Below, piece after piece: positions 3,781 through 63,500 of a stretch of DNA of 64,000 nucleotides. The DNA comes from Symmetrospora coprosmae (Eukaryota > Basidiomycota > Cystobasidiomycetes > Symmetrosporaceae). Location: assembly GCA_008802785.1 (NCBI GenBank), contig VUYT01000001.1:1116001-1180000 (forward strand), in the 5' to 3' direction. Numbering within the stretch: the first letter of the stretch is position 1; every line of letters begins with the position of its first letter. A program made the position numbers and the translations under genes. The notes beneath the pieces were generated by a model. It did not search any database, was not told the DNA's origin, and saw nothing but the letters and a program-made list of their open reading frames with translations.

Positions 3781-6700
3781 ATGGACAGCGAGCAGGAGCG
3801 GCAGCACCAGCTCCAGCTGCACCAGGAGCAGCAGGCAGCCATTGCAGCGTTCCACCGTGACCAGTTCTACCAACAGCAGCAGCAGCAGCAACAACAACAA
3901 CAGTTGCACCAACAGCAGCACGCCCGTGGATCTCCGGGCGGGTACTCTGACTCGAACGGGTTCGGCGGAGACGGCGCCGGCGGCGCGGATGCTTCCACAA
4001 CAGCGAGCAACACCCCTGGCCCAACCACACTCTCGCACAGCCTACATCCCCTCCTTGCTCCCGCAGCAGGACCCTCTCGAGCTTCTTCGTCCTCTACGCG
4101 CCCGCTCAAGCAGAAGAGGGGCGCCGGAGGAGCCGGCGCAGCAGCAGCACCGAGGGCAAGCACGTCTCGAGCCGAGACGCCCGGCAGTCCTGTCGAGGGA
4201 GGAAAGCGAGGCACAAAGAGACCCAGACCGACACTATCGTGCACGGAATGCGTGCGCCGGAAGTCCAAGTGCGACAGGGTAATCCCGTGTTCGACGTCCG
4301 TGACCGGGCTTACCCGCGAGTGCGGGCCGGACGCTCAAGAGACTGACCCCTCGCCAATTTCTGCTCAACCAGTTGCATCAAGAGAGGGTCGCCTGACAAG
4401 TGTAAAGTCGACGATGAGGCAGACAGGCCGTCGTGAGTACCCGCCTGACTGGATGCGACTCTGACAGAAAGGCTTATCGTAGACGTCCACCTTCCACGTT
4501 CATAGACAACCTTTCGCCCAAGCGAGAGAGCTGGCATCCGTGAAAGACCGTCTGGCCAAAGTCGAGCAACTTCTGCTGCTCATCGCTCCTGAACAGGCCA
4601 AAGCCGTTTTTGATGCCGACCTCGAAGACCTTGGGCCCCTGCTCCAGAGCATTGGACCAGCACATCTCCCACCTCTGCCGCCCGTCAAGCAGTCGGAAAG
4701 CGACATTGAGCGCGCAGAGAACGGAAGCGACGAGGACGACGGAGACGAAGACAGCGGAGAAGCGGAGAAGGCGGCTTTCGCGCTGGAGAGCATTGCTGTA
4801 GCTGGTCGGGCGCCTATGGTGAGCAGTGTTGAGCGATATTCAGTGTCAGGCAAAGGCAAGCTCACCCGCCGCATGCTTGTGCGACGGTAGAACACGGAGA
4901 ACGGTCTGGACTCGGACAGCCCACCTCTCACGAGCCAAGCCAAGATCAGGGAGTCCCAACTTCGTCAGCAAGAGGTGGACTTCCTCATGTCGATGCTGCC
5001 GGACTGGGAGCTGTCGAGGTCGCTTGTCGATGCGTACTTCAGCAAAGTCGCATGGCAGAACCACGTGAGTAGGCGGCTGAGCGCGATCTCTTTGATCCTT
5101 CAGGCTTACACAACAGCCATTTCCCACAGATCGTCCACATACCCACCTTCGAAGCGCAATACAGCGGCCTCAAGGAGCTGGTCGAACAGCGCAGAATCGA
5201 CGAGATCGAACCGGCCTGGCTCAGTCTGTACTTCATGGTGGGTGGTGAACGATGGGCGCCGACAGGCAATACCGAACATGCGCTGAAGTTGATACGTCCC
5301 GCAGGTCCTGGCCTGCGGCCTCTTCTTCAGTCCCAACCGACCTGACATCTCGCCCGCACACCAGGCCGAGTACACGCATACATGGGTTCACGGCGCGCAG
5401 CGCGCACTCCAGCTGGCGGACTGGTCCGGGCGACCGCAACTCACCTGTATCCAGTCTGTGGTCCTGCTGCCCATGGTGCTCATGCACGCGGGAGGCATCA
5501 AGCGCCTCGCGTCGTGGATCGCCGCTGCGCTGCGCATGGCACAGCTCCTTGATCTGCACAAGCTCGACGATAAGAATCAGCATGTCAGGCGCGCAGCAGG
5601 CGCAGCTGCTAACTTTACGCCTGTCGAGAAGGAGATCGGCAAGCGGCTGTACTTCTCCTTGGCCCACGGAGAGGCAAATCTGGGCAAGCGGTGGCTAGGT
5701 CTGGGTGACACGCCGAACGCCAATCGTGAGCGATCTGGGAACTGCTGGCCAGACTGTCAGAGTACTGAACGCTCATTCCCGGCTATACCTGTTCTTGCAG
5801 CCCAAAGCATCCCAAATCTGCTGAACGTTGATGATGCCGACTTATTGGCCAGTCCGCCCATCCCCAAGAATATCGAGGTCGCCACCGCCTCCTCTTTCCA
5901 GGTCATCCGAGCGAGAGTATGTATCTGAGTTGAGCTTTGACATATGCACACTGGATAAACCTGACTTATCGGCTGCGTGCTGAATAGATCACGACGCAAG
6001 ACTTTAACGCGCGACTGACTGGAAGCGACAACAGGCATCACAAGTACGAAACTGTTCTTGCCTTTGATCAGCGAACTCGACAGCTCTTGGACACTCTGCC
6101 TGCGTACTTCAAGTACGTTCAGTCACGCTTCCTTCTGCCCGCGGCCATCCTGACGCCGATCTCGCCCGCGCCTAACAGGTACGACCGTTCTGACGATCCC
6201 GACATCAAGGAAATAGTGCAGAGCCGCCCTTACATTGCCTACCAGCGGTGCATCGTTCTCTACGGGCTTAACAACCGGCTCTTACGAGCGCATCGGCCAT
6301 TCATGTCCAAGGGGTACTTTGATCCCAAATTCGCTTACTCGACGGACAGCTGCATCAAGGTATGAGTCAGCCGCGCAGTCATCGACGCCGCTCGATGACT
6401 GATAAACGGCTCCTTCACAGGCTGCCAAGGTCATCATCGCTGCCCAGCGGGCTCTGCGGGACATATTCGATGCGGCCGACAGGGTCAGTAAAGGATGTCG
6501 CGAAGCAGAACAAACGGCAGCAGCTGACAGGGTCTGCTATACAGATGTACAACTGCCTGCTCTATTGCTTCTCAAGCGCGGTAGTATTGCTTGTTGATTG
6601 CTTCCACCGCCTGGCCTCGCCCAATTCGATCACATCCACCATCGAGCTGGATTCGCAGCGCCACGAAGCCGTCTATGTCTTATTTATGCTGCGCCGTGAG

Positions 6701-13421: not shown

Positions 13422-14787
13422 ATGGTGGGCAACGTCAAACCGCGCACTGAGAAGACATTGCTCACTCTGTCGCATACTCATGATAGGCGACGTCGAACTA
13501 CCTCGTCGAGGCGTCCTCGCTAGCTCACTCCGACGATGTGTGGGCCTTGAAGCACCTCCCTGATGGCCGAGTTCTATCAGGGTCTGCGGACGGGAGCCTT
13601 AAGCTGTGGTAGGTAGAGTCCACGCAGCTCGTCGGTTCTTCCACTGAACACCATCTTCATACATAGGGACCCATCTGATCCCGATACCGCAATACAGTCC
13701 TTCACCCCAACCGCAACAGAGGGCTCTAAAATGCAAGCCGTTGTCGGCCTCGACATTGAGCAGAACACGGCATCGCCATCGTTCTTCATCGCCTCCACCA
13801 TCGATTCGACTGTATCGCGCTTCTCATTCTCCAGCTCTTCGCCAGAAGGCAGCTGGAGCCCGCCCGACTTGACCAAAAAGCCCGGCCAGGCCTGGTCCGT
13901 TTCCATCCACCCCGACCCCTCCAAGGAGACGTTCGCGACGACAGGTCTCGGAGGACTGGTGCGCATCTTGAGCTCTAACGCGACCACGTTCGGGGAGGAG
14001 AAATCTGCGATACAGGGCAAAGGAGATTTCGTCAGTGTGCGGTACAGCCCGAACGGGACGGTGCTTGGCACAGTCAACAGCGAAGGACAGGTAGCTCTCT
14101 ACGATGCAGAAGATGGTCAGCTCGTGCAATACTGGATGGGTGAGCACTTCGGTTCACAGTCGTAGTCGGAGGCACTGCTGACATTCCGACAACATAGCAC
14201 ACACGGGCAACATCCGCTCTTTCGCCTTTGCGCGAGACTCGAGCCTGCTCATCACTGGCGGAGACGACAAGCAGATCAACGTCTACGACATCAAGGGACT
14301 ACTGTCTGTGCGCGAGGAAAAGCAGAGCAATGGGTACCGCAGTGGAAACACAGCTGCAAGCAACGGAAATCTCCGGAGCCGGTACAGCGCGGTCGGGCAG
14401 CATGTCGCGAACCTGCAGGGCCACACCGGCTGGATCCTCGACTTGTCATGCAGAGACGACGGCAAGGTCTTCGCCAGCTCATCCTCAGACGGGTACGTTG
14501 AACGAGCCCGGAGAAGGTGTGTCACGCGAGCTTTGCACGCTGACAAGCGCCTTTCCTCCCTCGCTCCGCTCGACAGGACCATTCGGCTCTGGGATCTGCA
14601 GCGGCCAGCGTCTGCGTGTCTGGCCGTACTCAGAGAGCACGAGAGCGATGTGTGGGCAGTCAGCTGGGCGCCCATGCCGCCTTCTGCACACAGCATAGAG
14701 GGGATCTCTGGAGGAGGGCTCGGCGGGGGCAAGCTAGTCAGTGGCGGGAAAGACGGACGGCTTAGATGGTGGAGAGGTACCGGATAG
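13422..14787 (+). CDS. SKI8: Ski8-like WD40 protein (superkiller complex subunit)
   Basis: Exons 13422-13424, 13487-13608, 13667-14139, 14198-14492 and 14577-14787 sum to 367 residues, right for Ski8. The first coding exon is just the ATG, followed immediately by a 62-nt GTGGGC...ATAG intron; the protein then starts MATSNYLVEASSLAHSDDVW. WD repeats are visible as SGSADGSLKLWD, TGLGGLVRILSS, GQVALYDAEDGQLVQYW, TGGDDKQINVYDI, SSSSDGTIRLWDL and SGGKDGRLRWW, ending in the RWW tail typical of Ski8. Ski8 bridges Ski2 and Ski3 and fee mRNA to the cytoplasmic exosome; in several fungi it also acts in meiotic recombination with Spo11. Assignment rests on the N-terminal HSDDVWALKHLPDG block and the C-terminus. 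Confidence 0.82.
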
Positions 14788-22800: not shown

Positions 22801-25233
22801 AAGGGACTGGTCATCCTCGGCCATGCTGCGACGTCCGCTTCCGTCTTCCCGGCCGCATCCGGTCGCACGGGAGTCAGTGCTGCTGCGCAAGGCGGCAAGG
22901 GTGTCACCTTCGACACGCTGGCGGAAGGCCAGGTAATTGAGGCGACTATCGCGGACTCGAATCCGCAAGGCTACTTTGTCCAGCTTGGCAAGGGCATCCG
23001 AGGCAAGCTGCGCTGGACCGAGATTGGAGACGACTACGACGTTGTCTCTGGCCTCAAATTCGACAGAGGGACCGATGTGAAAGTGGTCGTTCTCGACTAT
23101 GACCGGGCAGCCAAGCGGATCGACCTGTCTGCTCGTCAGTCGAGGCTGCAACCAGCAGAAGGCGAGCTTGAAAACAGTGTAGTCCGTGACCCAGTCTGCG
23201 ATTCTCTCGACGATCTCGCGGAGGGCAAGGAGATTAGAGGATTCGTCAGGAGCATCTCAGACGCGGGCGTGTTTGTGGAGGTTGGCAAAGACCTCGCAGC
23301 GCGCGTGCAGATCAAGGTGAGTCGCATTGGCGTCAGGCAACATCGGTCTGCAGATTGAAAGGTGCAGATCTCTGACATCCCTAATTATCCGGCATCGCAG
23401 GAACTCTTTGACGATTTTGTCAAAGATTGGAAGCCACGTTTCGCCGTCGGACAGCTCGTCTCTGGCAAGATTCTATCGTGAGTATCGAGCGCCCGTTCGC
23501 GCACTAATCTGCCTGCTCAACGTCTGAACGGTCCTTATACCCTTTCCCGACGCCCTCAGTACGGACAAGGCAACAAAGAAGATCGAAATGACGCTCCGCA
23601 AGAATGCATCAGCTAAGCGCACGAAGAAGGACACCGGTGCCACCGTGCTGTTTGAGGGCCTCGCTGTGGGTCAAATCATCTCCGGCACAGTCAAGCGCAT
23701 CGAGGCGTACGGTGCGTTCATCCGCTTGGACGGCAGCACCCTGTCTGGCCTTTGCCACCGCTCGCAATTTGTCGAAGACGGCGAGGCCAAGCCAGAGACG
23801 CTCAACGAGCTCGTCAGCATCGGACAGAAGGTCAAGGCGGTTATCCTTGACCTCAACGTCGAGAAGAAGAAGATCGGGCTTGGCATGAAACCGTCGCAGC
23901 TGAAGGAGGCTGGAGCCGGTGATGAGGAGGACGACGAGGAGGTAGATGGAGACGAGGAGAATAGCGTCATGAAGCAGCTCAATAAGCTTGTGCGCGCTCA
24001 GGAGGCCGCCTCGGATGAGGACGACGAGGATGAAGGGAGCGATGACGACGAGCTGCAGATCTTGATGGGAGACGAGGACAACGACGATAATGACGATGAG
24101 GAGGAGGCTCAGTCGGAAGACGAGGAGCCGGCTGGCCCCTCTACGTCCGCGCCTGCCAACAACGGCAAGGCACCACTGAAGCTGTCAAATTTCAAATGGG
24201 ACGGCGAAGTCGAGGATGGCATGAACGTCGACGAAGCTGCCGAGTCTGCCTCCGATGACGACGAAGACGAAGAGGAGGCTGCTAGCAGCAAGAAGGCAAA
24301 GCCGGCATCGAGCGGCATCCTCATCAACGATCAGACTGGCAGCCTATCAAGTCAGCTACCTACTTCACCATCCGACTTTGACCGGCTCGTCCTGGCGAAC
24401 CCAAATTCGTCCGAGCTGTGGATCAGCTACATGTCGTACTACCTCGGTCTGTCGGACCTCGAGTCTGCACGGCAGATTGCGCAGCGCGCTCTCAAGACGA
24501 TCAACTACCGCGAGGAGGAAGAGAAGCTCAACATCTGGGTCGCTCTCATCAATCTCGAGAATCAGTCGAGCGACGAGGATGCTCTGGATACAACAATTAA
24601 CAAGGCCCTGCAGCACAATGACCCGAAGAAGGTCTATCAGCGCACGGTCGAGCTTCTCGAAGCGACGGAGAATTCCGAGAAAGCTACCGAGGTGTATGAG
24701 CGCTTCATCAAGAAGTTCAACATGGCCAGCAAGGCTTGGACGCTGTACGGCGGCTTCCTGCTCCGGAGAGGCAAGAGCGATGCGGCGAGGGAGCTGTTGC
24801 CGCGCAGTCTCAAGAGTCTGCCCAAGCGCAAGCGTAAGTGCAAATTCTCGCATCCTGCATGGCGGATCAGGCTGACAATGCGCCCGCTTCCGTGCTTGCA
24901 GACATCAAGACCATCTCGCAGTTCGCGCTAATGGAGTTCAAGATGGGCGACCCGGAGCGCGGACGCACCATCTTCGAAGGGATCGTCGACAGCTATGCGA
25001 AGCGGCTCGACCTCTGGTGGATCTACATTGACCAGGAGATCCGGCTGCGCAACGTCGCTGGGGTGCGCGCGCTCTTTGACCGGGTCCTTGCGACAAAGCT
25101 CTCGAGCAAGAAGACAAAATCCGTGCTGAAGAAGTGGCTTGGGTTCGAGAAGGAACACGGCGACGAGCAGGGCGCAGAGGCCGTCAAGCAGCGTGCGGTG
25201 GCATATGTGCAGCAGCTCCAGGACAGGGAGTGA
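19822..25233 (+). CDS. RRP5: Rrp5, S1-repeat and HAT-repeat rRNA biogenesis protein
   Basis: Five exons (19822-21279, 21343-23316, 23368-23477, 23560-24833, 24902-25233) give 1715 residues, the normal size. Rrp5 is a nucleolar RNA-binding protein needed for both 18S and 5.8S/25S maturation. A basic Lys/Ala-rich N-terminus is followed by many S1 RNA-binding modules (for example LGHIPITNISRQYTKRL, ALTAFVGFKQEKKA, GTVQRLTESALFVNIHGSVA, GTVKRIEAYGAFIRLDG with LCHRSQFVEDGE), then a very acidic linker, then C-terminal HAT (half-TPR) repeats (LWISYMSYYLGLSDLESARQ, AWTLYGGFLLRRGKSDAARE, RLDLWWIYIDQEIRL). I chose the ATG at 19822 (MAIAPKSKGKG); an in-frame ATG at 19714 gives an unlikely hydrophobic leader. 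The first intron (21280-21342) is in frame and stop-free, so it is easily missed. Confidence 0.93.
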
Positions 25234-30695: not shown

Positions 30696-32945
30696 ATGGC
30701 ACAAGAGTTCGCTGCCCAGGAGGACAAGATCTTCAAGGAGGAGGTCGAGCAGGTCAAGCAATGGTTCAAGGTGGGTGCTGACGTGCTTGCGGTACCGCTC
30801 CCCTGCGCTCCTTCACTCGAAGGTGCTGCTTGCTCCGGAATGACAAGCACTCCGGAGCACCGAGCCGGCCGGCTGAGGCGGCGGAGAGGCCACCCGAGGG
30901 GAGGGCCCGAGCACTTCAGCGTGAAATACGAGCAGGAGCATGGTCGGAGCAACGACTGACTCCACTGACAATCCATCCTGCTCGTGTCCACAGTCACCCC
31001 GCTTCGAAGGCCTCATCCGTCCCTACACTGCTGAGCAGGTTGTCAGCAAGCGAGGGACCATCCCTCTCCACTACCCTTCAAATGTCCAGGGCAAGAAGCT
31101 CCACAAGCTCCTCAGCCAACACGCAAAGAACAAGACACCCTCGCACACCTATGGAGCGTGGGTTACCGTGTCCACGCGACCTTCAGCGTTGTGTCTGGAC
31201 TGACCATCCCTTGCCACCCCGACAGCCTCGACCCTGTCCAGATCACGCAGATGGCAAAATACCTCGAGACTGTCTACGTTTCGGGCTGGCAGTCGAGCAG
31301 CACAGCGAGCTCGACCAACGAGCCTGGACCAGATCTTGCCGACTAGTGAGTCAGGTAGCTTAGGAGAACCGCTCCCAGACCTGACGGCGGGCTCCTGTGC
31401 CCTCTCCACCAGCCCTTACAACACTGTGCGTCCGGTGACTGCTCACGTGTGTAGGGATGCCCGACTGACCATCTCGATCTGCTGCTCAGGTCCCGAACAA
31501 GGTCGAGCATCTGTTCATGGCCCAGCTCTTCCACGACCGGAAGCAGCGCGAGGCACGAAGCGGTATGAGCGTCCAAGAGAAGGCCAAGACGCCCTACATT
31601 GACTGTGCGTGCGTTTAGCACACCGTCCGGGTTGCGGTCGCTGATATTTAAAGATACCTCCCAGACATGAGGCCCATCATTGCCGACGCCGACACTGGTC
31701 ACGGAGGTCTGACCGCCACGATGAAGCTCACCAAGCTCTTCGTCGAGCGCGGAGCTGCAGGCATTCACATCGAGGATCAGGCTCCAGGCACCAAGAAATG
31801 CGGCCACATGGCCGGCAAGGTCCTCGTTCCCATCCAGGAGCACATCAACCGACTCATCGCCATTCGATTGCAGTACGACATCATGGGCGTCGAGAACCTT
31901 ATCGTCTGCCGAACCGATGCCGAAGCGGCTACCCTGCTCTCGACGAATGTTGATGAGCGCGACCACGCCTTTGTCCTCGGAACGACAAACGAGAGCCTTG
32001 ACCCGCTCGTCGAGGTCATGAACAAGGCGGAGCGGGCCGGCAAGATCGGCGACGAACTCCAGGCCATTGAGGATGACTGGATGTCGAAAGCCAACCTTAC
32101 GCTCTATGGCGATGCCATCTCGGCTGCATTGAAGAAGAAGGGTATCTCGCAAAAGAAGATCGACGACTACTTGACGAAGACGGCGCACGTCTCGCACGCA
32201 AAGGCCGTCAAGGTGGCCAAGCAGGAGTTTGGTGTCGAGATCTTCTGGGACTGGGATGCACCGCGCTCTCGAGAGGGCTACTACCGCTACCAGGGCGGTA
32301 CGCAGTCGTGCATCAACCGTGCCGTCTTCTACGCGCCGTACTGCGATGCTCTATGGATGGAGACGGCCAAGCCGATTCTGAGCCAGGCGAAAGAGTTCTC
32401 CGCAGGCGTCAAGTCAGTCCATCCGAACAAGTGGCTCTCGTACAATCTCAGCCCATCCTTCAACTGGGATGCTGCTGGACTGAGCGAGACGGCCATGCGC
32501 GACTACATCTGGGAGCTCGGCAAGCTCGGCTTCGTGTGGCAGTTCATCACGCTTGCTGGACTGCACTCCAATGCCTACATCTCGGATCAGTTCGCCAAAG
32601 CCTTTGCAAAGGACGGCATGGCGGCCTATGTCGGGCTCATCCAGCGCAAGGAGCGAGAGATCGGCTGCGATGTCCTCACGCATCAGAAGGTGGGTCTGGA
32701 TTGGCCTCCCGGGGCGGACCGCAAGATGCTGAGACTGACTTTGCTGTTCGGCCTTCACAGTGGTCGGGAGCAGAGTACGTCGATGGTCTCCTCAAGACTG
32801 TCACTGGCGGTGTCTCGTCGACGGCAGCCATGGGCAAGGTGGGTCGTTCGCCCGGCTGGAAGTTCCTCTAGACATACGCTGATGCAATTGGTGTGTGTTA
32901 CAGGGAGTCACCGAGGGGCAATTCGGCCAGGCAACCAAGCATTAG
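30696..32945 (+). CDS. ICL1: Isocitrate lyase (glyoxylate cycle)
   Basis: Eight exons (30696-30770, 30994-31157, 31226-31345, 31413-31425, 31490-31604, 31665-32689, 32761-32838, 32904-32945) give 543 residues. The enzyme cleaves isocitrate to succinate and glyoxylate, allowing growth on C2 compounds and fatty acids. The active-site signature KKCGHM is present (in [15 protein letters not shown]), as are [18 protein letters not shown] (Mg-binding region), [22 protein letters not shown] and the fungal extension region. Exon 4 is a 13-nt microexon that restores the family sequence [18 protein letters not shown]. Intron 1 is 223 nt, the longest in the gene. The protein ends GQFGQATKH, which is not a canonical SKL-type peroxisomal signal, so cytosolic placement is possible. 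Confidence 0.96.
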
Positions 32946-33271
32946 TCTTGCATGCACCACATCTCCGTACGCTGAGGAACCTGGCTGCCACCTTCACGGT
33001 GACGTCCGCGCAGCATCCAGCCGTTCGCACGTGATTGTCTGGGCGAGCACCCACGTGGCGCGGACTTCTCTCGACTTGCGTCCTACGAGTACGCACCCGT
33101 GTATCACTGTAGCTCTCATCCCTATATTGGAACAGACACCTTGCTAGCTGTGATGATTGATTGCTCTCGATACATTGAGCTCAATTTCGCGGTCCTGTCC
33201 GCCTCGGTCGGCGTCTTGCGAAGAAGCCCTGCCCCTTTACCTCTGTCCGGATCCGCACAGCCAAGTCTGCA
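32946..33271. other. Intergenic gap between ICL1 and PLD1
   Basis: A 326-bp gap in tandem orientation, presumed to hold the ICL1 3' end and the PLD1 promoter. No gene, repeat or RNA is apparent. Confidence 0.6.
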
Positions 33272-36200: not shown

Positions 36201-39200
36201 GCTTGTTGACGGCGTGAGTCCGCAAGTCACCTCACCTCAGCACTGGGCTGAGTAGTCCATCACATCCCAGCGCGACTACTACTGGAACCTCTCGCGTGCT
36301 ATCCTACTCGCGAAGGAGAAGATCTATATCCACGACTGGTGGCTAAGTCCCGAGCTCTATCTTCGTCGCCCGCCAGCAGAGAACGGGCGCTGGCGTCTGG
36401 ACCGGCTACTGCAGCGAAAGGCTGAGGAAGGCGTGCAGATCTTTGTCATCGTCTACAATGAGGTTTCGAACGACTTTACGCCCGTCGACTCCAACCATAC
36501 CAAGAGTACACTGGTTGGCCTTCACCCGAATATCATGGTTCAGCGATCGCCTAGCCACGCGCAGACGCGCACGCTACTGTGGTCGCATCACGAAAAGATG
36601 TGCGTTATCGACGACACAATTGGCTTCATGGGTGGCTTGGATCTCTGCTTTGGACGGTGAGTGTGCTCGAGCTGCGTCTTTGCGGTCGCCAGAGCGGCTG
36701 AAACTATCGAATGCAGATGGGACACCCCTGCGCATGCGATGGTCGATGATGGCCCAGCCTTGGCCGATGATCTCGATCTGCCCGAGAACAAGGCCAACGG
36801 GCACAGCCACGAGCGAGAATCCTCGCAGATATGGCCTGGCAAGGATTATGCGTGCGTGCCCGTACTTTCCTGCTTGGTCGCTAGCTGAGCAGGTTCTGGT
36901 TGCAGCAACTCACGGATCACGGACTTCTACGACCTGAATAAGCCGTTCGAGGACATGTTTGACCGCTCGAAGACGCCCAGAGAGCCCTGGTGAGCATGTT
37001 GTCTCCCAGCCCGCTCCTTAGCTCTCTGCTGACAGTCCTGTACATCTTGCAGGCACGACATCGGTCTACAGATCATTGGTCAGCCGGCCCGTGATCTCTG
37101 TCGTCACTTCATGCAGAGGTGGAATCTACTCTTGCGGACCAAGAACCATCGCCGCTTCATGCCTTTCCTTCTACCTCCACCGGACTTCACCGCACGCGAG
37201 CTGGCCAATTTGCAGCTTACCGGTACATGCGAGGTACAGATCTGTCGCTCTGCATCGCCCTGGTCGATTGGAACGCCAAACAAAATAGAGCACTCCATTC
37301 AGACAGCTTACATCAAGGCGTGAGTCAAATATCACATTGGATTAATGCGCGTTCCAACTGATCTGGTATCCGGTTTGCAGCATCCAATTATCAGACTACT
37401 TTGTCTACATCGAGAACCAGTTCTTCATCACAAGTACCGTGGTCGGCGGGACCTCCATCGAAAACAACATCGGGAATGCCATTGTGGCTCGCATCCAGCA
37501 AGCACATTCCGAGGGGAAGCCGTGGCGGTGAGCAGGGCCTGCTAGATCGCCGAAACACGACGGGAGAGCTGATCCACTTTGCCCCACAGCGCCATCATCC
37601 TCATCCCGCTCGAGCCGGGATATCCGATGCCGGTAGATCACCCTGATGCTGGCTCAGTCCGGCTTATCATGGAGTGTCAGTTCAACTCGATCTGTCGAGG
37701 GGAGCACTCGATCTTCGCCCGCCTGCGACGAGATGGCATCGATCCGAACGAGCACATCAGTATCTATGGCCTGAGGAGCTGGTCACGTATGCAAGATGGT
37801 ACACTGGCCACCATGGGCGTAAGTCTGTTGTCTCGGCGTATCCGTCTTACATAGGCTGACCCCCTCATCGTACTCGATAGGTCTACATCCACGCCAAGTG
37901 CATGGTCGTGGACGACCGCATTGCGATCATCGGCTCCGCCAACATCAATGAACGCTCTCAACGCGGAGATCGTGACTCTGAGCTCGCCTGTGTCATTCGA
38001 GATACGGATATGATTGACAGCACCATGGCAGGCAAGCCATACAAGGTTGGCCGCTTTGCGCACACTCTTCGCATCAGGCTCATGCGTGAACACCTCGGGG
38101 TTGACGTCGACGCGCTTGAGGAGGAGGAAGCCCATATGGACCTGATGGAACGCGAGCCCGTCATCCCAGATGAGGATGATGTTGATGTGTGGGATCCCAG
38201 CAAAGAAGAGCACGCTGGCAAAGGAGGCATTACGGGCGAGAAGGGTCACAGAACGCGTGCAAACGAGGAGGGCCACCGCCTTGGCGGACGGTTCGGCGAA
38301 GTTGCGAAGGGCGCAGGCGAGGCAGTGGGCATTGCTGCCCAAAAGGGCATGCCAAACATCGATGCTGGAGCTGCTTCGGCTGCAGATAACGCCGGCCATA
38401 AGGCCAAGAAGAGCGCGCACCACAGTACGGAGACTGAGGACGGACCCAGCACGGGTGGTGATCGCATCGTTACTGGGGGAGAGGACGGTGACGGTACCGC
38501 TTCCACCGTGGTGCCTACTCTGGAGGAAAAGACCCTGGGTGAAGGGAGACCCCAGAACGGCAAGCAGGATGGTATGCATGCGTCTGAAACTCGGAGCGAG
38601 GGTAAGAGTAGCGGCCGGTCTGGGCCTCAGCAGGGTCGCTTGGTAGACGACCTAAAGCAGGCAGGGGCAGGGTCTTCGACATCTGGTCAAGCGAGCGGAC
38701 AGCCCGACGCGAATCACAACGTATCCGATACACGTCAGCTCGCTGGCAAGGGCGATACGGGCCAGGAGCTGCGTGAGCCGGAGGACGTTGCGCATGCTCA
38801 CCGTGGCGGTGGACATCACGATAACCTCCATGATCTCGAAGAACACGAGGAGCGTGCAAAGGCGCAGCGACCCACTGATGAAAAGGAGCGCAAGAAGGAC
38901 AAGGCCGAGGAGAAGATTCGAAAGCGGCACAGTCGCTTAAATAGCAATGTCACAGTGGCTAGCTTTGGAAGCACCAGCCCGACCATGGTCAGGGAGGAAT
39001 CGGAGGCTGGAAGCAAGACCGCTGGAGGCAAGAGTAACGAACAGATCGCCAACTCCAACCGCGCGGTTGATGCTGCACGCAAGGGACTGCAGGGAAAGAT
39101 GAATGCCTATTCCCTGCCAACGCAGGCGCCCAAGGTGGACCCGAAGATGTTCGATGATCCGTTGACCGACAGCTTCTACAAGGACGTCTGGGTCGCTGGT

Positions 39201-39760
39201 GAGATTCAGACTTTGACCCTGATTGGCGAAGATCATAGACTGAGTCTGCTCTTCTCCAATATCAGCGGCCGTACGAAATACTCAGATCTTCAGAAAAGTT
39301 TTCCGATGCACGCCGGACGATCTCGTCACCACCTGGGCCATGATGAAGGAGTGGTCGGCCTGGGGTAAACGTCACGAGAAGGTGTCAAGCAAGAGCTCGT
39401 CGCCGACGCGTGCTAGCGATAGCCTTGCGGGCGGTCCAGGGGCTCAGCCGGTGCCAGAAGATGACTTTCAGCACGCAAAGAGTCCGACAGAAGCGCAACA
39501 GGAAGCCGAGGCCAAAAAGAAGGCCAAGCATCAGCAGGAAGAAGCCTTCACTGAGGACGAGGTGGAGCAGATGATGGCGCTCCTGGAAGAGGCGACTGGT
39601 ACTTTAGGTGGGTCGAATGAGGCTGAGTCTCTCATATCGAAACTGAGCCCATGCTACCTCTTTAGTCCTCTATCCTACCCGCTTCCTTGAGGGCGAATCA
39701 GCTGGTCAGAACTTCCTCTGGTCAAAGGATCGCATCCCTCCTATCGCTATTTTCAATTAG
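33272..39760 (+). CDS. PLD1: Phospholipase D with PX, PH and two HKD motifs (Spo14/PLD1 type)
   Basis: Thirteen exons (33272-34954, 35032-35382, 35449-35685, 35755-36213, 36256-36656, 36717-36851, 36906-36989, 37053-37319, 37381-37527, 37590-37818, 37881-39198, 39266-39607, 39666-39760) give 1915 residues in frame. The enzyme hydrolyses phosphatidylcholine to phosphatidic acid. After a 500-residue disordered N-terminus come a PX domain (PVLLNYLKLRITDS, ELEYGDGLLKWTVYREL), a PH domain (GYLRVLSSG, KWFIVRESYIVSTDEP, TKVWDCFLIDADFEIE) and the two catalytic halves: HKD1 HHEKMCVIDD and HKD2 HAKCMVVDDRIAIIGSANIN, both with His, Lys and Asp intact. An acidic, disordered insert follows HKD2; the C-terminus reads YPTRFLEGESAGQNFLWSKD as in the family. 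The 35686-35754 intron is in frame and stop-free. The regulator SRF1 is at 7753-10266. Confidence 0.95.
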
Positions 39761-46655: not shown

Positions 46656-48214
46656 ATGGGGGGACGACGCGGACGAGCAAGGAGGCGAGGTAGCGGACAA
46701 ACGGGAAGGGGCGGACGCCCGCGAGAAGACAGCAGACGCGCGTCGAACGTAGAAGCTGGGAATAAACGCGGCAACGTAGACAGGGAGGAGAGCGATCTTC
46801 CCAGTCCCCCGGTTACGAGAAGCGCTGCGGGAGCCTCCAATGAGAGCGGACCCGGTGAGACCGTCAGAGCTGCAAGCGAGAGTCCCGAGCGCCCTATTCG
46901 AGTGAGCGTCAGCATTATTGGGCTGGTTCTCGTCACATACTGAGGTATTGGCTGCTCTTGATCGCATAGCCTCTACCTAGCGGGCCAGCATCTCCGACAG
47001 CACAGCGAGTTCCTGCTGAGGGCGCACGCACACGCAGCAGACCCGTCGTCATTGATGACGATGACGATGACGATGACGACAGCAATTCGGATGAGGACGA
47101 AGACGAATCCGGCTTGACGCAGATGCAGCACATGCGTCTTCACGAACCCTCCGAAATCGCCTTGAAGAACATTCGCGCTCGCGGCGCCAAGGTCGAAAGC
47201 GTTGCTGCGCAGCGTGAGAGGGATCGCGTGAAGCGCGAGCTGTTCAAACAGCGAAGCGCAGAGGAGCATCGCGGAGGTATGATCGCTGAGCGGAAAGAGA
47301 AGATGAATCTGCTTGCGACACTCCGCACAGACATCGCGAGCGGCTCGACAGTCGCTGGCAATGGCAGTCAGTCCGGAACGGTGCTCCAGGTAGTCGACAA
47401 AGTCCGGCATATCGACGGCCGACCGGCCGTTTCGCCTGCCGAGAAGGCTACTTTACCTCTCCACAACAACCTCTACTCCTTTCTTCTCGATGTCTTCGTC
47501 AAGCCTGTCACATTCCAGCCTGCAGACTGGACCGCTTCCTCTACGCTTGTGAGGGAGCGAGAGACGGGAGCGGGAAGCGACTCGCAATCCGACAGCGCTG
47601 AGACCGCGGGCCCAGCGGACAAAGGCAAAGGCAAAGCAGCCTCCAAAGATACAGGCGCAGCAGACGGAGCCAATCAGGATGGCAATGACAGCGCTCTTGC
47701 CCAGTTCTATGTCCGCCGGCTGGTCTTCCCCAATCAGGAGGCACTCGATCTCTTTTTGCGGGAGCTACAGGCCGACTACCCCGACTACACCCTCTACATC
47801 GACACCATCAGAGCTTTTGCTCGCGCCCAGGACAACAAGGGAATGCGCTGCCTCCTGTATGGCGGCATGACCGTTGCAGGCACACCGTGGACGCGAGAGG
47901 AGGACGACGAGCAGGATGCCTCGGGCTCTCTCGCCAAGTACGCTCTCAAGAAGTACACCGAGAGCGGCAACGATATAGAGGTGTGGGAAGTCAGGCCGCT
48001 CCGCTTCTTCGTTCCCAGCAGACTCGAGGCCAGGGCGGACATCCGACTCAGCTTCTTTGAGAGTTTGGTCATCGATTCCTGCGGTTTCGTCAGCCTAAAC
48101 ACCGCTCCTCCCGGCATTGTCATTGACTACGAGCCTTCTGCAGACACTCTCGACGCCTTAGCTGCCATTGATGCTCAGATTGTAGACCGCAGCATGTACA
48201 ACTACTCGTTTTAG
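46656..48214 (+). CDS. Unknown protein with GIY-YIG-nuclease-like C-terminus
   Basis: Two exons (46656-46901, 46970-48214) give 496 residues. The N-terminus is very basic (MGGRRGRARRRGSGQTGRGG), followed by an acidic run (VVIDDDDDDDDDSNSDEDED). The C-terminal 170 residues resemble a GIY-YIG domain: a strand pair YTLYIDTIRAF and CLLYGGMT (about residue 373), an Arg shortly after (TPWTREED), then FFESLVIDSCGFVSLNTAPP (about residues 442-460), where the Glu and the LN...PG ending occupy the usual places of the metal-binding Glu and the last strand. The first GIY motif is degenerate, so catalysis is doubtful. GIY-YIG nucleases cut DNA in repair, recombination and mobile introns. This assignment is from motif spacing only. 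Confidence 0.6.
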
Positions 48215-48356
48215 GTGTTGCCGAGGCTGCGCGGATACGTGCAAGATATCAGATAAGACTGAAACAGGATCTGATGGACCGCGCCAAGCTCATCTGTATA
48301 TAACAATACTAAAGCTCCCCTTATGAACAAGCACAGATAGCCTAGCTGTCATTGGG

Positions 48357-48500
48357 TCCCGTTTCGTATAGGTAGGCTTCTTTACCCCTTTCTCGCAATG
48401 TCGGACGTCTTCTGATCAACAACGTCAACAGTGGTTATTATATCTCACTCGTACTTTCGCGTACATGAGAGGGTCCTGCGTTCAAATCGCAGAATGGGAA
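48357..48500 (+). tRNA. Interrupted tRNA gene, anticodon CGT (Thr), two introns
   Basis: Removing 48372-48431 (60 nt, starts GTAGGC, ends CAACAG) and 48454-48464 (11 nt) leaves a 73-nt cloverleaf. Acceptor 48357-48363 (TCCCGTT) pairs with 48493-48499 (AATGGGA), with one G-U. D loop AGTGGTTA is formed across the long interruption. Anticodon stem TCTCA/TGAGA (48443-48447, 48466-48470) is perfect, with loop CTCGTAA giving anticodon CGT. Variable region is 5 nt. T stem CTGCG/CGCAG is perfect with loop TTCAAAT (48481-48487), and the discriminator is A48500. U8, A14, G15-C48, G18, G19, A21, U33, T54-C56 and C61 are all in place; the D stem has one U-U mismatch. A TTTT terminator follows at 48505-48508. 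The 11-nt intron is at the canonical 37/38 site; the D-loop insert is not. Isotype Thr follows only from the anticodon; the U1-A72 pair is unusual for tRNA-Thr. Confidence 0.68.
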
Positions 48501-48504
48501 TTCC

Positions 48505-48508
48505 TTTT
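48505..48508 (+). terminator. Pol III TTTT terminator after the tRNA gene
   Basis: A run of four T residues on the non-template strand begins four bases after the discriminator, the usual place and form of an RNA polymerase III stop. Confidence 0.6.
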
Positions 48509-48765
48509 GCCTCGGACGTCCATATGTCTTCATAGGGCTGCGTCTTCTTTTTTGATGCCAGATGCGCCGCTCTGCATGACTTGCACGTTGTTGCTCCCTG
48601 CGGAAGCTCTGAAGCCCGCAACTACTCGTATAGGTGCGCGGACGCCTCCGAGTCAAGTGCCTGGCTTCGCTCACGTGTTTGCCGCACCTTTGCTTGATCC
48701 GACTCGCCAATACCAGCACATAGAGACGCCTATACATCATCAGGGCCACAGGACAGCGCGGCAGG

Positions 48766-53773
<5,008 letters not shown>

Positions 53774-60521: not shown

Positions 60522-63500
60522 CTACAAGTCAGAGTCGTGATAGGCTGATTTGCGCATCTTGCCCAGCTTGCGGCGGGCGTCAGCTGTAGAAGGGGAATGC
60601 GGTCGTAATCAGCAACAACGCCGGGATTCAGGGCTTCCCAGTCATCTGCGACTTACTCAGCTCCTTCTCCAACTTGAGGATCTCGACCTGCTGCTCCATC
60701 TCGCGCATCTTGAACTCGTGGGCGCCCATCGAGTTGTAGTCGTCCGTGTCGGCAAGCTCGAGGTTTTTGGCCGAGACAGCCTTGACCTGGCGGACGAGCG
60801 CTCTGCAAGCGTCCGTGACTGCCTTGGCTGCCTTCTCGAGATTGTCCTGCGTCTTGCTCATGAGCTCAGACTTGACTCTGCTGGCCTGAACGAGCTGCGC
60901 CGTCGCAGCCGCCACCTCGTTCGAGGCAACGATGAGCTGCTCCAAGCTCTGAGACCCGGAGATAACGCCGTCGGCCGCCTCGATGAGGACCGTCGTCGCA
61001 AATGCCACAGCCTTGGCAGCGGAGATGAGTCCGTCTGTCCAGCGGTTGTTCTTCTTGTAGAAAGCCTGCGCTGAGCTGGACCCACGGCCCTGCGCGACAA
61101 TCTCCGACTGGGAATCTGTTGCTGCCTGGATGAGGCGTGCGATAGCCTGCGTGATGGCCAGAGCAGACGCCAAGATGGTATCGTGGACTTGCAGGTCCAC
61201 TGCAGAGTACCGCGAGGTGTCCTTCTGGCGGGACATGAGCAGCTGCAGCTTCTCCGTAGCCGCTTCGATAGCTCGAGCCGCGGCATTCATCTCCTGTTCG
61301 ACCAGGTCTCCAATATCGCCGTTCGCCCGGTTCGTGGCAGAGGTCTGCTTCGGGATCAGGACCTCGATCTCGGACGATAACTTGGCGAGAGCGTCCCGTG
61401 ACTTCATGTTGTTCAGCAACAGCAGATCCTTCTTTCCCTGCAGCTTCATGCTCTCGAGTCTGTACGACTGAAGCGAGTATAGCCCGCGGAGAACGACATC
61501 CCCCGGCACCTTGCCGATGCGGACCAGAGCATCGACGGCGTCGTCGTTCTTCGCCAAGCGGGTGATGCCCTTGGTGTTGACGAGAACGTCCGAGATTGCC
61601 TGCGCCAAGCTGGTGGCTGTCTTGATGACCTCGACGTGCTCTCCTCCGCGTTCGCCGGACAGGTACAGATCAAAGACGGTTGCGAACTCCGTCGCACTTG
61701 TCATGGCCTTCTCGATCGTTGCCAAGGTGTATTCTGGGGTGGCATTCTGGTTGCCGAGCTGCATTGGCGACTCGAGCTCGTAGATCGAGTCGTCAATCTT
61801 CTGGACGCCGGCCTGCAGGATCGAGTCAATGATGGCATTGAACTTCTTCTGCTGGTCCAGGATGAGCGTGTCGATCTGCGCGTTGACCGCCGTCTCTGTG
61901 TCTCCCTGACTCATCTGCAGGTCTGCCATCTGGCGGATCGTATCGTCCATTCCTTCCTTCATGATCAAGATTTCCATGTCCTTCTCCTCGCGGACTCGAT
62001 CCGCTTCGCCGCCCGACTCGCTAAGCTTCTTGAGCAGATCGTCGATCTCGTATTGCTTGTTCCGCAGCGTGTCCTCGAGCTCGTTGAGCTGCCTGTTGTA
62101 CTTGCTGAGCATATTCGAGACCTCGCTGCCCTTTGACCGCGTGGCGTCTTGTGCTCTCTCCTCGGCGAAGCGGAGATCGCGCTTCGTCCGCTCGAGCTCG
62201 TCTTTGTGGCTCTGCGAAACGGTGATCATCGCGTCAGAACGGAATTTTCATCAAGCTTAACACCCAACCATGATTAGGAAAGCAACTCACCGACTTGAGC
62301 CTGTCCATCTCGAACCTCGCTCGGTCTCGCTCTCGGATCATATCGGCAAGCTCCAGGTTCTTCGACTTCATGTCCCGCTCCATGCGTGCCATCTTGTCGA
62401 TCGCCTCCTGCGCCGAGTTTGCCTTGAGCTGGAGGCTCTTGCTTTTGTTGAGCAGGTCGAGGTGTTCATTCCTCAGCTGCGAGTACAGCTTGGCGAGCGC
62501 CTCGTATTTAGACCGCCACAGATTGCCCTGGTCCTGCAGGCCCTTGAGCATCTCGTCCTTTGCCTGCATCTGCTGCGCAATGTTCTGGTTCACGGCCTGC
62601 ATCTCCATCTCGAGCGTCTTGACCCGTCGGTCATACTGCTCGAGCATCATCTGGTCCCGCTCGTACTGCCCGCGCATGGCGAGAATCTCACGCTCGAGCT
62701 CGGCCGTCCGGCCCGCTTGGTGCGAGGCATACTGCTGCTGGATGAGATCGTCCTGCGCCTGGCGCTCACGCTGCGCTTGCAGACGCTGCTGCTCCTCGAA
62801 TTCGCGCTGCTGACGCGCGGCCTCGTCTGCGCGGCGGCGCGCCTCAGCGTCCTGCTTGGCTTTCAGCGCTGCCTGCTGATCCTCGTAGTGCTTGAGCATG
62901 CGAATTTGCTCCGCCATGTCGTCCGGCTGGGGGCTCTCGCTCTTTGGCACTGGTGTGCGGGTCGCCTCGCGTGGCGGCTCGGTGGTCTTTGGTCTCGTTG
63001 GCAAGCTCGGCTCGTCTGCCTTTTGTAGGTCGGGCGGATCCTGCAATATAGTGCAAGACAATTCAGCGCACACCTATGTAACTTCCTCGTTAGCGATATT
63101 GCTCACCCGTGGCAACTTGGGAACCGTAATGAGCGTGGTCAAGAACTTCAGATTACTGCACTCGTAGTAGAACTTGCGCAGATTGTAGTGCTGAGCATTG
63201 TAGCGCTGACGGACAGGCTCGAGCGCCTCCACGGCTCCCGTTTCTGTCGGTGCCGAGGACGTCAGCTCAAAGACGGGCCAAGCTACAGATGGCCCAAATA
63301 GCGGTCTCACTTCGGTGGATAGCTCGCGCCATGCTGGTAATGAAGCGATAGATTCCGTAGGATTCCTTGACTAGTGGCACCAACGCCGAGATCCTCGCCT
63401 CGTTGTTGCCAGAATCCTTGAAGTGGGCAAAGACGAGCTTCTGGAACGAGTCGATTTTGTCTTGGAGGTCCATCAGATCGTTGATCGTCTCGAAGCTGGA

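Follow-up and report, generated by a model that had tools for sequence, protein, structure and literature searches.

What is known of tRNA genes that carry an intron in the D arm as well as at the canonical site between positions 37 and 38? The tRNA-Ile(UAU) gene of Cyanidioschyzon merolae has introns in the D, anticodon, and T arms, and Crenarchaeota also have a D-arm intron besides the one at 37/38, like the locus described here (passages of PMC9602550 and PMC3978253). In both systems the D-arm intron probably leaves first, the order that we propose for our locus, and both are described with a bulge-helix-bulge structure and tRNA endonuclease (same passages), whereas in the D-loop interruption found here we find no full motif of that kind; it is as long as the local mRNA introns, with GT-AG ends and a branch-like site. 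The precedent for spliceosomal, mRNA-type introns in small structured RNA is the U6 snRNA and U3 snoRNA of fungi, to which our reading of the locus bears a likeness; according to the relevant section of a 2017 paper, frequent interruption by an intron is known for no small structured RNAs other than U3 and U6 (PMC5832005). Unlike U6 and U3, the host here is a tRNA gene, with an internal promoter and a 5' exon of 15 nt.

Set beside the 37/38 introns of eukaryotes, the locus contains an 11-nt piece that is such an intron by position, and a 60-nt piece that differs from them in lying in the D loop. The account of tRNAscan-SE 2.0 limits eukaryotic tRNA genes to one intron and, in its parts on introns, describes a search for noncanonical ones for archaea (PMC8450103); the one-intron rule is broken by the ectopic and multiple introns of Cyanidioschyzon (passages of PMC9602550 and PMC3978253). 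Because noncanonical introns are sought for archaeal models, as that account has it, a tRNA gene like the present one would probably be missed by tRNAscan-SE 2.0 (PMC8450103). The same anticodon is found in yeast TRT2, a tRNA-Thr(CGU), which differs in having G1-C as its first pair where our locus has U1-A72; an excerpt of PMC8092322 gives deletion of TRT2 as lethal, the isoacceptor being essential in yeast.

The window that we analyzed is a 64,000-nt stretch of Symmetrospora coprosmae DNA, and all coordinates refer to it. Direct reading of 48357-48500 on the plus strand finds all parts of a tRNA in order, making up a complete 73-nt cloverleaf with anticodon CGT (Thr CGU). Two pieces interrupt the tRNA-Thr(CGU) gene, a 60-nt one within the D loop and an 11-nt one at the canonical 37/38 site:

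48357-48371, plus strand: tRNA 5' exon, comprising acceptor strand 1-7, TCCCGTT (48357-48363), and positions 8-15, TCGTATAG (48364-48371)
48364-48376, plus strand: A-box-like internal promoter TCGTATAGGTAGG, its last five bases being the first five of the insert
48372-48431, plus strand: D-loop insert and candidate spliceosomal intron, 60 nt, GTAGGC...CTGAT...CAACAG
48412-48416, plus strand: branch-point-like CTGAT with its A at 48415, fitting CT[AG]A[CT]
48432-48453, plus strand: tRNA middle exon, positions 16-37, with G18 G19, the 3' side of the D stem, the 5' side of the anticodon stem, and the anticodon CGT
48454-48464, plus strand: canonical 37/38 intron CTTTCGCGTAC, 11 nt, assigned by position; ARAGORN gives the same 11-nt intron after joining
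48465-48500, plus strand: tRNA 3' exon, positions 38-73, with the T arm/B box and A73
48505-48508, plus strand: TTTT, probable Pol III terminator, the first TTTT after the tRNA start

The acceptor stem pairs TCCCGTT with AATGGGA (48493-48499) in 7/7 positions, including one G-U, and A73 follows at 48500. The anticodon stem TCTCA/TGAGA has 5/5 pairs, its loop reads CTCGTA/A, and with anticodon CGT and A37 the G35 and U36 of tRNA-Thr are present. The T arm, CTGCG-TTCAAAT-CGCAG, likewise has 5/5 pairs, the variable loop is GGGTC, and the D stem is weak, with 3/4 pairs (G10-U25, U11-A24, and A12-U23) and U13/U22 unpaired. An initial sequence-only reading had described an interrupted cloverleaf with seven acceptor pairs, perfect anticodon and T stems, and a TTTT, and had placed the 11-nt piece at 37/38, all of which our re-reading bears out. 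It had also held that every invariant base checked was present, which is correct for 22 of the 23 positions that we take to be invariant or semi-invariant; position 9 is the exception, a C and not a purine. Removal of the 60 nt puts G18, G19, and A21 at the standard distance from A14 and G15, and G15 can pair with C48. The 11-nt piece would be expected to be an ordinary 37/38 intron, removed by tRNA endonuclease.

Could such a cloverleaf be a chance assembly of motifs? A scan for 3' halves with 5/5 T-stem pairs, 5/5 anticodon-stem pairs, U33, R37, A21, GG, Y48, and TTCRANY, with up to 60 nt allowed at 37/38, found one in the real window, at this locus; 2000 dinucleotide-shuffled versions of the window, searched on both strands, gave 0. 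A 5' half to match it, with seven acceptor pairs, three D-stem pairs, T8, A14, and R15, appeared in 9/20000 shuffles of the 215 nt upstream of the 3' half, and on both strands of the real window it occurs at one place only, the correct one, 60 nt upstream. These criteria were fixed after the candidate had been seen (3/4 D-stem pairs were accepted, for example, and position 9 was left free), which favors chance, as does the leniency of ARAGORN; the margin is large nonetheless. At its default threshold ARAGORN makes no call on the native gene, with anticodon introns allowed or not, and Rfam has no tRNA match in the window at gathering level, nor in 48300-48560 with E as high as 10. With the 60 nt removed and the ends joined, ARAGORN calls a tRNA-Thr(CGT) with an 11-nt intron, a call to which we give little weight because 802/12370 artificial deletions at the locus also yield some tRNA call. 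The shuffles confirm the interrupted cloverleaf as genuine, well beyond chance, and largely exclude chance assembly, the likelihood of which is close to nil.

Several other candidates were set aside. The sole Rfam match in 48300-48560, a sub-threshold snoRNA on the minus strand, was disregarded. With loosened thresholds the low-quality ARAGORN calls numbered up to 131 and 205; among the matches listed is a tRNA-Arg at 48052-48500 with a 355-nt intron that shares this T arm, also disregarded. If two bases of the 18-nt loop are left ahead of the cut, the anticodon becomes GTA (Tyr) and the intron falls at 33/34; this register was dropped for its misplaced cut site and for a 1-72 pair other than C-G.

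To what extent does the 60-nt piece look like an intron of this genome? The gene downstream, RPC1, which encodes the largest subunit of RNA polymerase III, lies at 48766-53641, and our 1376-aa model has 11 short GT-AG introns and a stop at 53641; its C-terminus is probably incomplete, yeast RPC1 running on. These 11 introns, set by reading frames, formed the reference set, each being left out of its own scoring model. Alignment with yeast RPC1 is gap-free over 10/11 junctions, and the eleventh intron (51095-51155) lies outside both queries and fits the yeast sequence. The RPC1 introns are 58, 59, 61, 63, 65, 66, 68, 69, 77, 78, and 81 nt long, a range that includes the 60 nt of the D-loop piece, and all 11 have a GT start and G at +5. 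Their best branch-like site, picked with a matrix that was hand-set and not trained, is CTRA in 11/11, and 7/11 fit CT[AG]A[CT] (CTGAC or CTAAC), the rest being CTAAG, CTGAG, CTGAA, and CTGAA. The CAACAG at the end of the 60-nt piece is also the end of the intron at 51095-51155.

The splice score of the 60-nt piece is 14.4 bits, within the 14.3-21.2 bits of the RPC1 introns, of which it exceeds 1/11 only. Its 5' splice site scores 2.1 bits, below all 11 RPC1 introns (2.6-9.6), and its G at +4 is found in 0/11 of them. With the exon AG counted, its complementarity to U1 amounts to 6 Watson-Crick and 2 wobble pairs of 9, the RPC1 introns having 5-8 Watson-Crick pairs; 5% of the GT sites on the plus strand of the window have at least 6. 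When three registers are allowed, an equal or better score is reached at 42/127680 placements of a 60-nt segment (30/63840 on the plus and 12/63840 on the minus strand), and with 13 registers the counts are 130 (plus) and 52 (minus). A random 60-nt segment is thus equally intron-like at a frequency of ~2e-4 to 5e-4 for three registers and 0.8e-3 to 2e-3 for 13. The piece resembles local mRNA introns in splice sites, branch site, length, and total score, with the weakest 5' site of the set, and the intron-like GT...AG ends and CTGAT pointed out in the sequence-only reading hold up in this comparison.

The end of the tRNA gene, which as such belongs to the Pol III genes, is ~265 nt upstream of the RPC1 start codon at 48766, and the ORF on its other side ends at 48214. 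Further off, Pfam matches at 31652-33034, 23528-24931, 37881-39368, 60628-62247, 14182-14787, and 5293-5928 correspond, in the order listed, to isocitrate lyase, S1 plus HAT repeats (presumably Rrp5-like), a phospholipase D motif, an I/LWEQ domain (presumably Sla2-like), WD40, and a fungal-specific transcription factor domain. Two exact repeats flank the locus or touch it: CAACTACTCGT at 48199-48209 and 48619-48629, and the A-box stretch TCGTATAGGT at 48364-48373 and, 262 nt downstream, at 48626-48635. They were considered as traces of duplication and dropped, being by estimate near chance level for 1.3 kb. Near-exact pattern scans for a relative of the tRNA gave 0 matches in viral (two patterns) and prokaryote (one pattern) contig collections. 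With a fragment of RPC1 as query, neither the viral nor the prokaryote contig collection yielded a fungal relative of the RPC1 locus; the viral one gave no match at all. Residues 112-202 of the fragment share 32% identity with one distant stretch encoded by SKKR01000112.1, a bacterial MAG contig (GTDB, labelled Thermomicrobiaceae), which is possibly eukaryotic contamination of the MAG.

Does the insert leave the Pol III signals in place? The A-box consensus is T-N-G-Y-N-N-A-R-N(1-3)-G-G, with GG at positions 18-19. The A-box-like TCGTATAGGTAGG matches it, with C at position 9, and a B-box-like GCGTTCAAATC is present as read by eye. The A box spans tRNA positions 8-19 (a passage of PMC3978253), and it is complete in the unspliced DNA because the insert opens with GTAGG, whose last two G stand in for those of positions 18-19, so the earlier suggestion that the A box survives the insert is upheld. 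None of the 11 RPC1 introns would complete the A box with GG at +4 and +5 as the insert does, and 18% of 60000 window positions would. The unusual G at +4 could possibly be explained by A-box completion, a connection that is suggestive only. There is no TTTT inside the gene and one at 48505; 143 nt without TTTT followed by a TTTT at most 15 nt on is found at 0.95% of window positions. The 60-nt piece is itself free of TTTT, which is not distinctive because 10/11 RPC1 introns are free of it too. TATATAA occurs at 48297-48303, rather far upstream of the tRNA, and nothing is drawn from it; a scan for bacterial-type promoters and terminators gave nothing and has no bearing on Pol III.

The joined 73-mer has a minimum-energy fold with four arms at -20.2 kcal/mol, 3/200 shuffles being as good. 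The acceptor and T arms are those expected. The other two are non-canonical, a D arm of 7 pairs closing a 4-nt loop and a displaced anticodon arm, so that energy minimization by itself fails to recover the canonical cloverleaf. When the 11-nt intron is retained, the 84-mer folds at -23.3, 5/200 shuffles being as good, with four anticodon-stem pairs and a GTAC/GTAC helix predicted between the anticodon and the intron. The unspliced sequence 48357-48499, with A73 left out, keeps the acceptor and T arms, lacks the D arm, and is matched by 35/200 shuffles.

In the light of these results, the reading that we prefer is that of a Pol III tRNA gene from whose transcript the spliceosome would remove the D-loop intron before tRNA endonuclease removes the second intron, and we put its probability at about 0.5. 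The main rival is that a 60-bp insertion into the D loop recently inactivated a tRNA-Thr(CGU) gene, or a gene of another isotype with a shifted anticodon, and that no D-loop splicing takes place. The acceptor pairs U1-A72, C3-G70, and G5-U68 depart from the yeast Thr identity pattern: the eukaryotic row for Thr in an identity review gives G1-C72, U3-A70, and G5-C68 (table in PMC9976931), and yeast TRT2 has G1-C as its first pair (excerpt of PMC8092322). The difference in the 1-72 pair, U-A against G1-C72 of yeast tRNA-Thr, was absent from the sequence-only reading. The discriminator is A73; the text of the review states that replacing A73 by G73 or C73 has an impairing effect in yeast, and its table gives U73 for eukaryotes (parts of PMC9976931). 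Anticodon shifts are documented in eukaryotes (a passage of PMC3923123). Since the acceptor pairs depart from Thr identity, the gene may be dying, or may belong to another isotype whose anticodon has shifted. The D-arm letters presumably resemble those of other isotypes, a resemblance that was not used. C9 and U13/U22 are also off the usual pattern, the native gene has no default ARAGORN call and no Rfam call, and an insertion is a more common event than a new kind of intron. Against inactivation stand the 7, 5, and 5 intact pairs of the acceptor, anticodon, and T stems, the 22/23 listed invariant positions, and the TTTT in place, and a random 60-nt segment would be as intron-like only at the low frequencies given above. 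We consider a dead or off-identity gene unlikely on balance, and the foremost competitor of spliceosomal removal.

The tRNA could also be functional and have an ectopic intron removed by the tRNA splicing endonuclease, in the style of Cyanidioschyzon and archaea, with GT...AG a coincidence. A eukaryote with ectopic introns in the D arm is known (passages of PMC9602550 and PMC3978253); at our locus, the register shifted by one base has 3/4 central and 3/3 outer pairs, and the legal cut pair 48374-48432 has 2/4 central, 3/3, and 2/3. The bulge-helix-bulge test (3-nt bulge, 4-bp helix, 3-nt bulge) covered the 23 cut pairs that leave a legal D loop in the ranges tested, and a full motif (4/4 central pairs and at least 2 per flanking helix) was found at none of them, a result with which relaxed motifs remain compatible. 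The best D-loop cut pairs score 4-1-1, 3-3-0, and 2-3-2 (central of 4, outer of 3, inner of 3); the 37/38 intron, for comparison, scores 3-2-3 and is not a full bulge-helix-bulge either. Of the three 60-nt registers, the best forms 6/10 pairs, a figure equalled or surpassed by 6306/20000 random placements. In the nucleomorph of Guillardia theta, many ectopic introns are without a defined motif (a passage of PMC3978253). Cutting the D loop at 48377-48434 instead, with GTAGG retained as positions 16-19, gives neither GT-AG ends nor a bulge-helix-bulge and was rejected. Together we regard removal by the endonuclease as improbable. The nearness of RPC1, with its start ~265 nt downstream of the tRNA and its 11 similar introns, and of the upstream ORF brings up one more explanation, that the GT-AG piece is an intron of the RPC1 5'-UTR or of the upstream gene's 3'-UTR, in a Pol II transcript running through the tRNA gene. 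This leaves unexplained the exact D-loop position and the restored distance of G18, G19, and A21 from A14 and G15, and we hold it to be very improbable.

How would the two introns leave under the preferred reading of spliceosomal removal? Pol III would read through both introns, neither of which contains a TTTT, and end at the one that starts at 48505. In the nucleus, the spliceosome would then remove the 60-nt GT-AG intron between positions 15 and 16, which would allow the D arm and the L-shape to form. The tRNA endonuclease, which would need the L-shaped fold, would then cut at 37/38 and take out the 11 nt, and the mature tRNA would be charged with threonine. The D-loop intron is placed first because the endonuclease probably contacts the D arm and the acceptor stem (a passage of PMC3978253), and the introns of the D and T arms in C. 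merolae are believed to be removed ahead of the anticodon intron (passages of PMC9602550 and PMC3978253). The fuller version of this reading, a functional tRNA with a D-loop spliceosomal intron whose 5' splice site is the end of the A box, and with spliceosome and endonuclease acting in fixed order, we place a shade below even odds. Within the open-licence PMC literature we found no report of a spliceosomal or D-loop intron in a fungal tRNA gene, which sets a low prior for a spliceosomal tRNA intron, absence there being no proof. Each element, tRNA gene and spliceosomal intron, is of a known kind, and it is their apparent combination for which we found no description.

If the preferred reading is true, tRNA would join U6 and U3 as a class of small structured RNA reached by spliceosomal introns. 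The spliceosome would then act on a Pol III transcript whose 5' exon is 15 nt long and whose promoter lies inside the gene. One tRNA would need two different splicing machines. Split tRNA genes of this kind may have been overlooked in fungi since tRNA finders do not seek them there. If so, there would be a blind spot in tRNA annotation, and fungal isoacceptors that are apparently missing could be of this kind (cf. the parts of PMC8450103 on introns).
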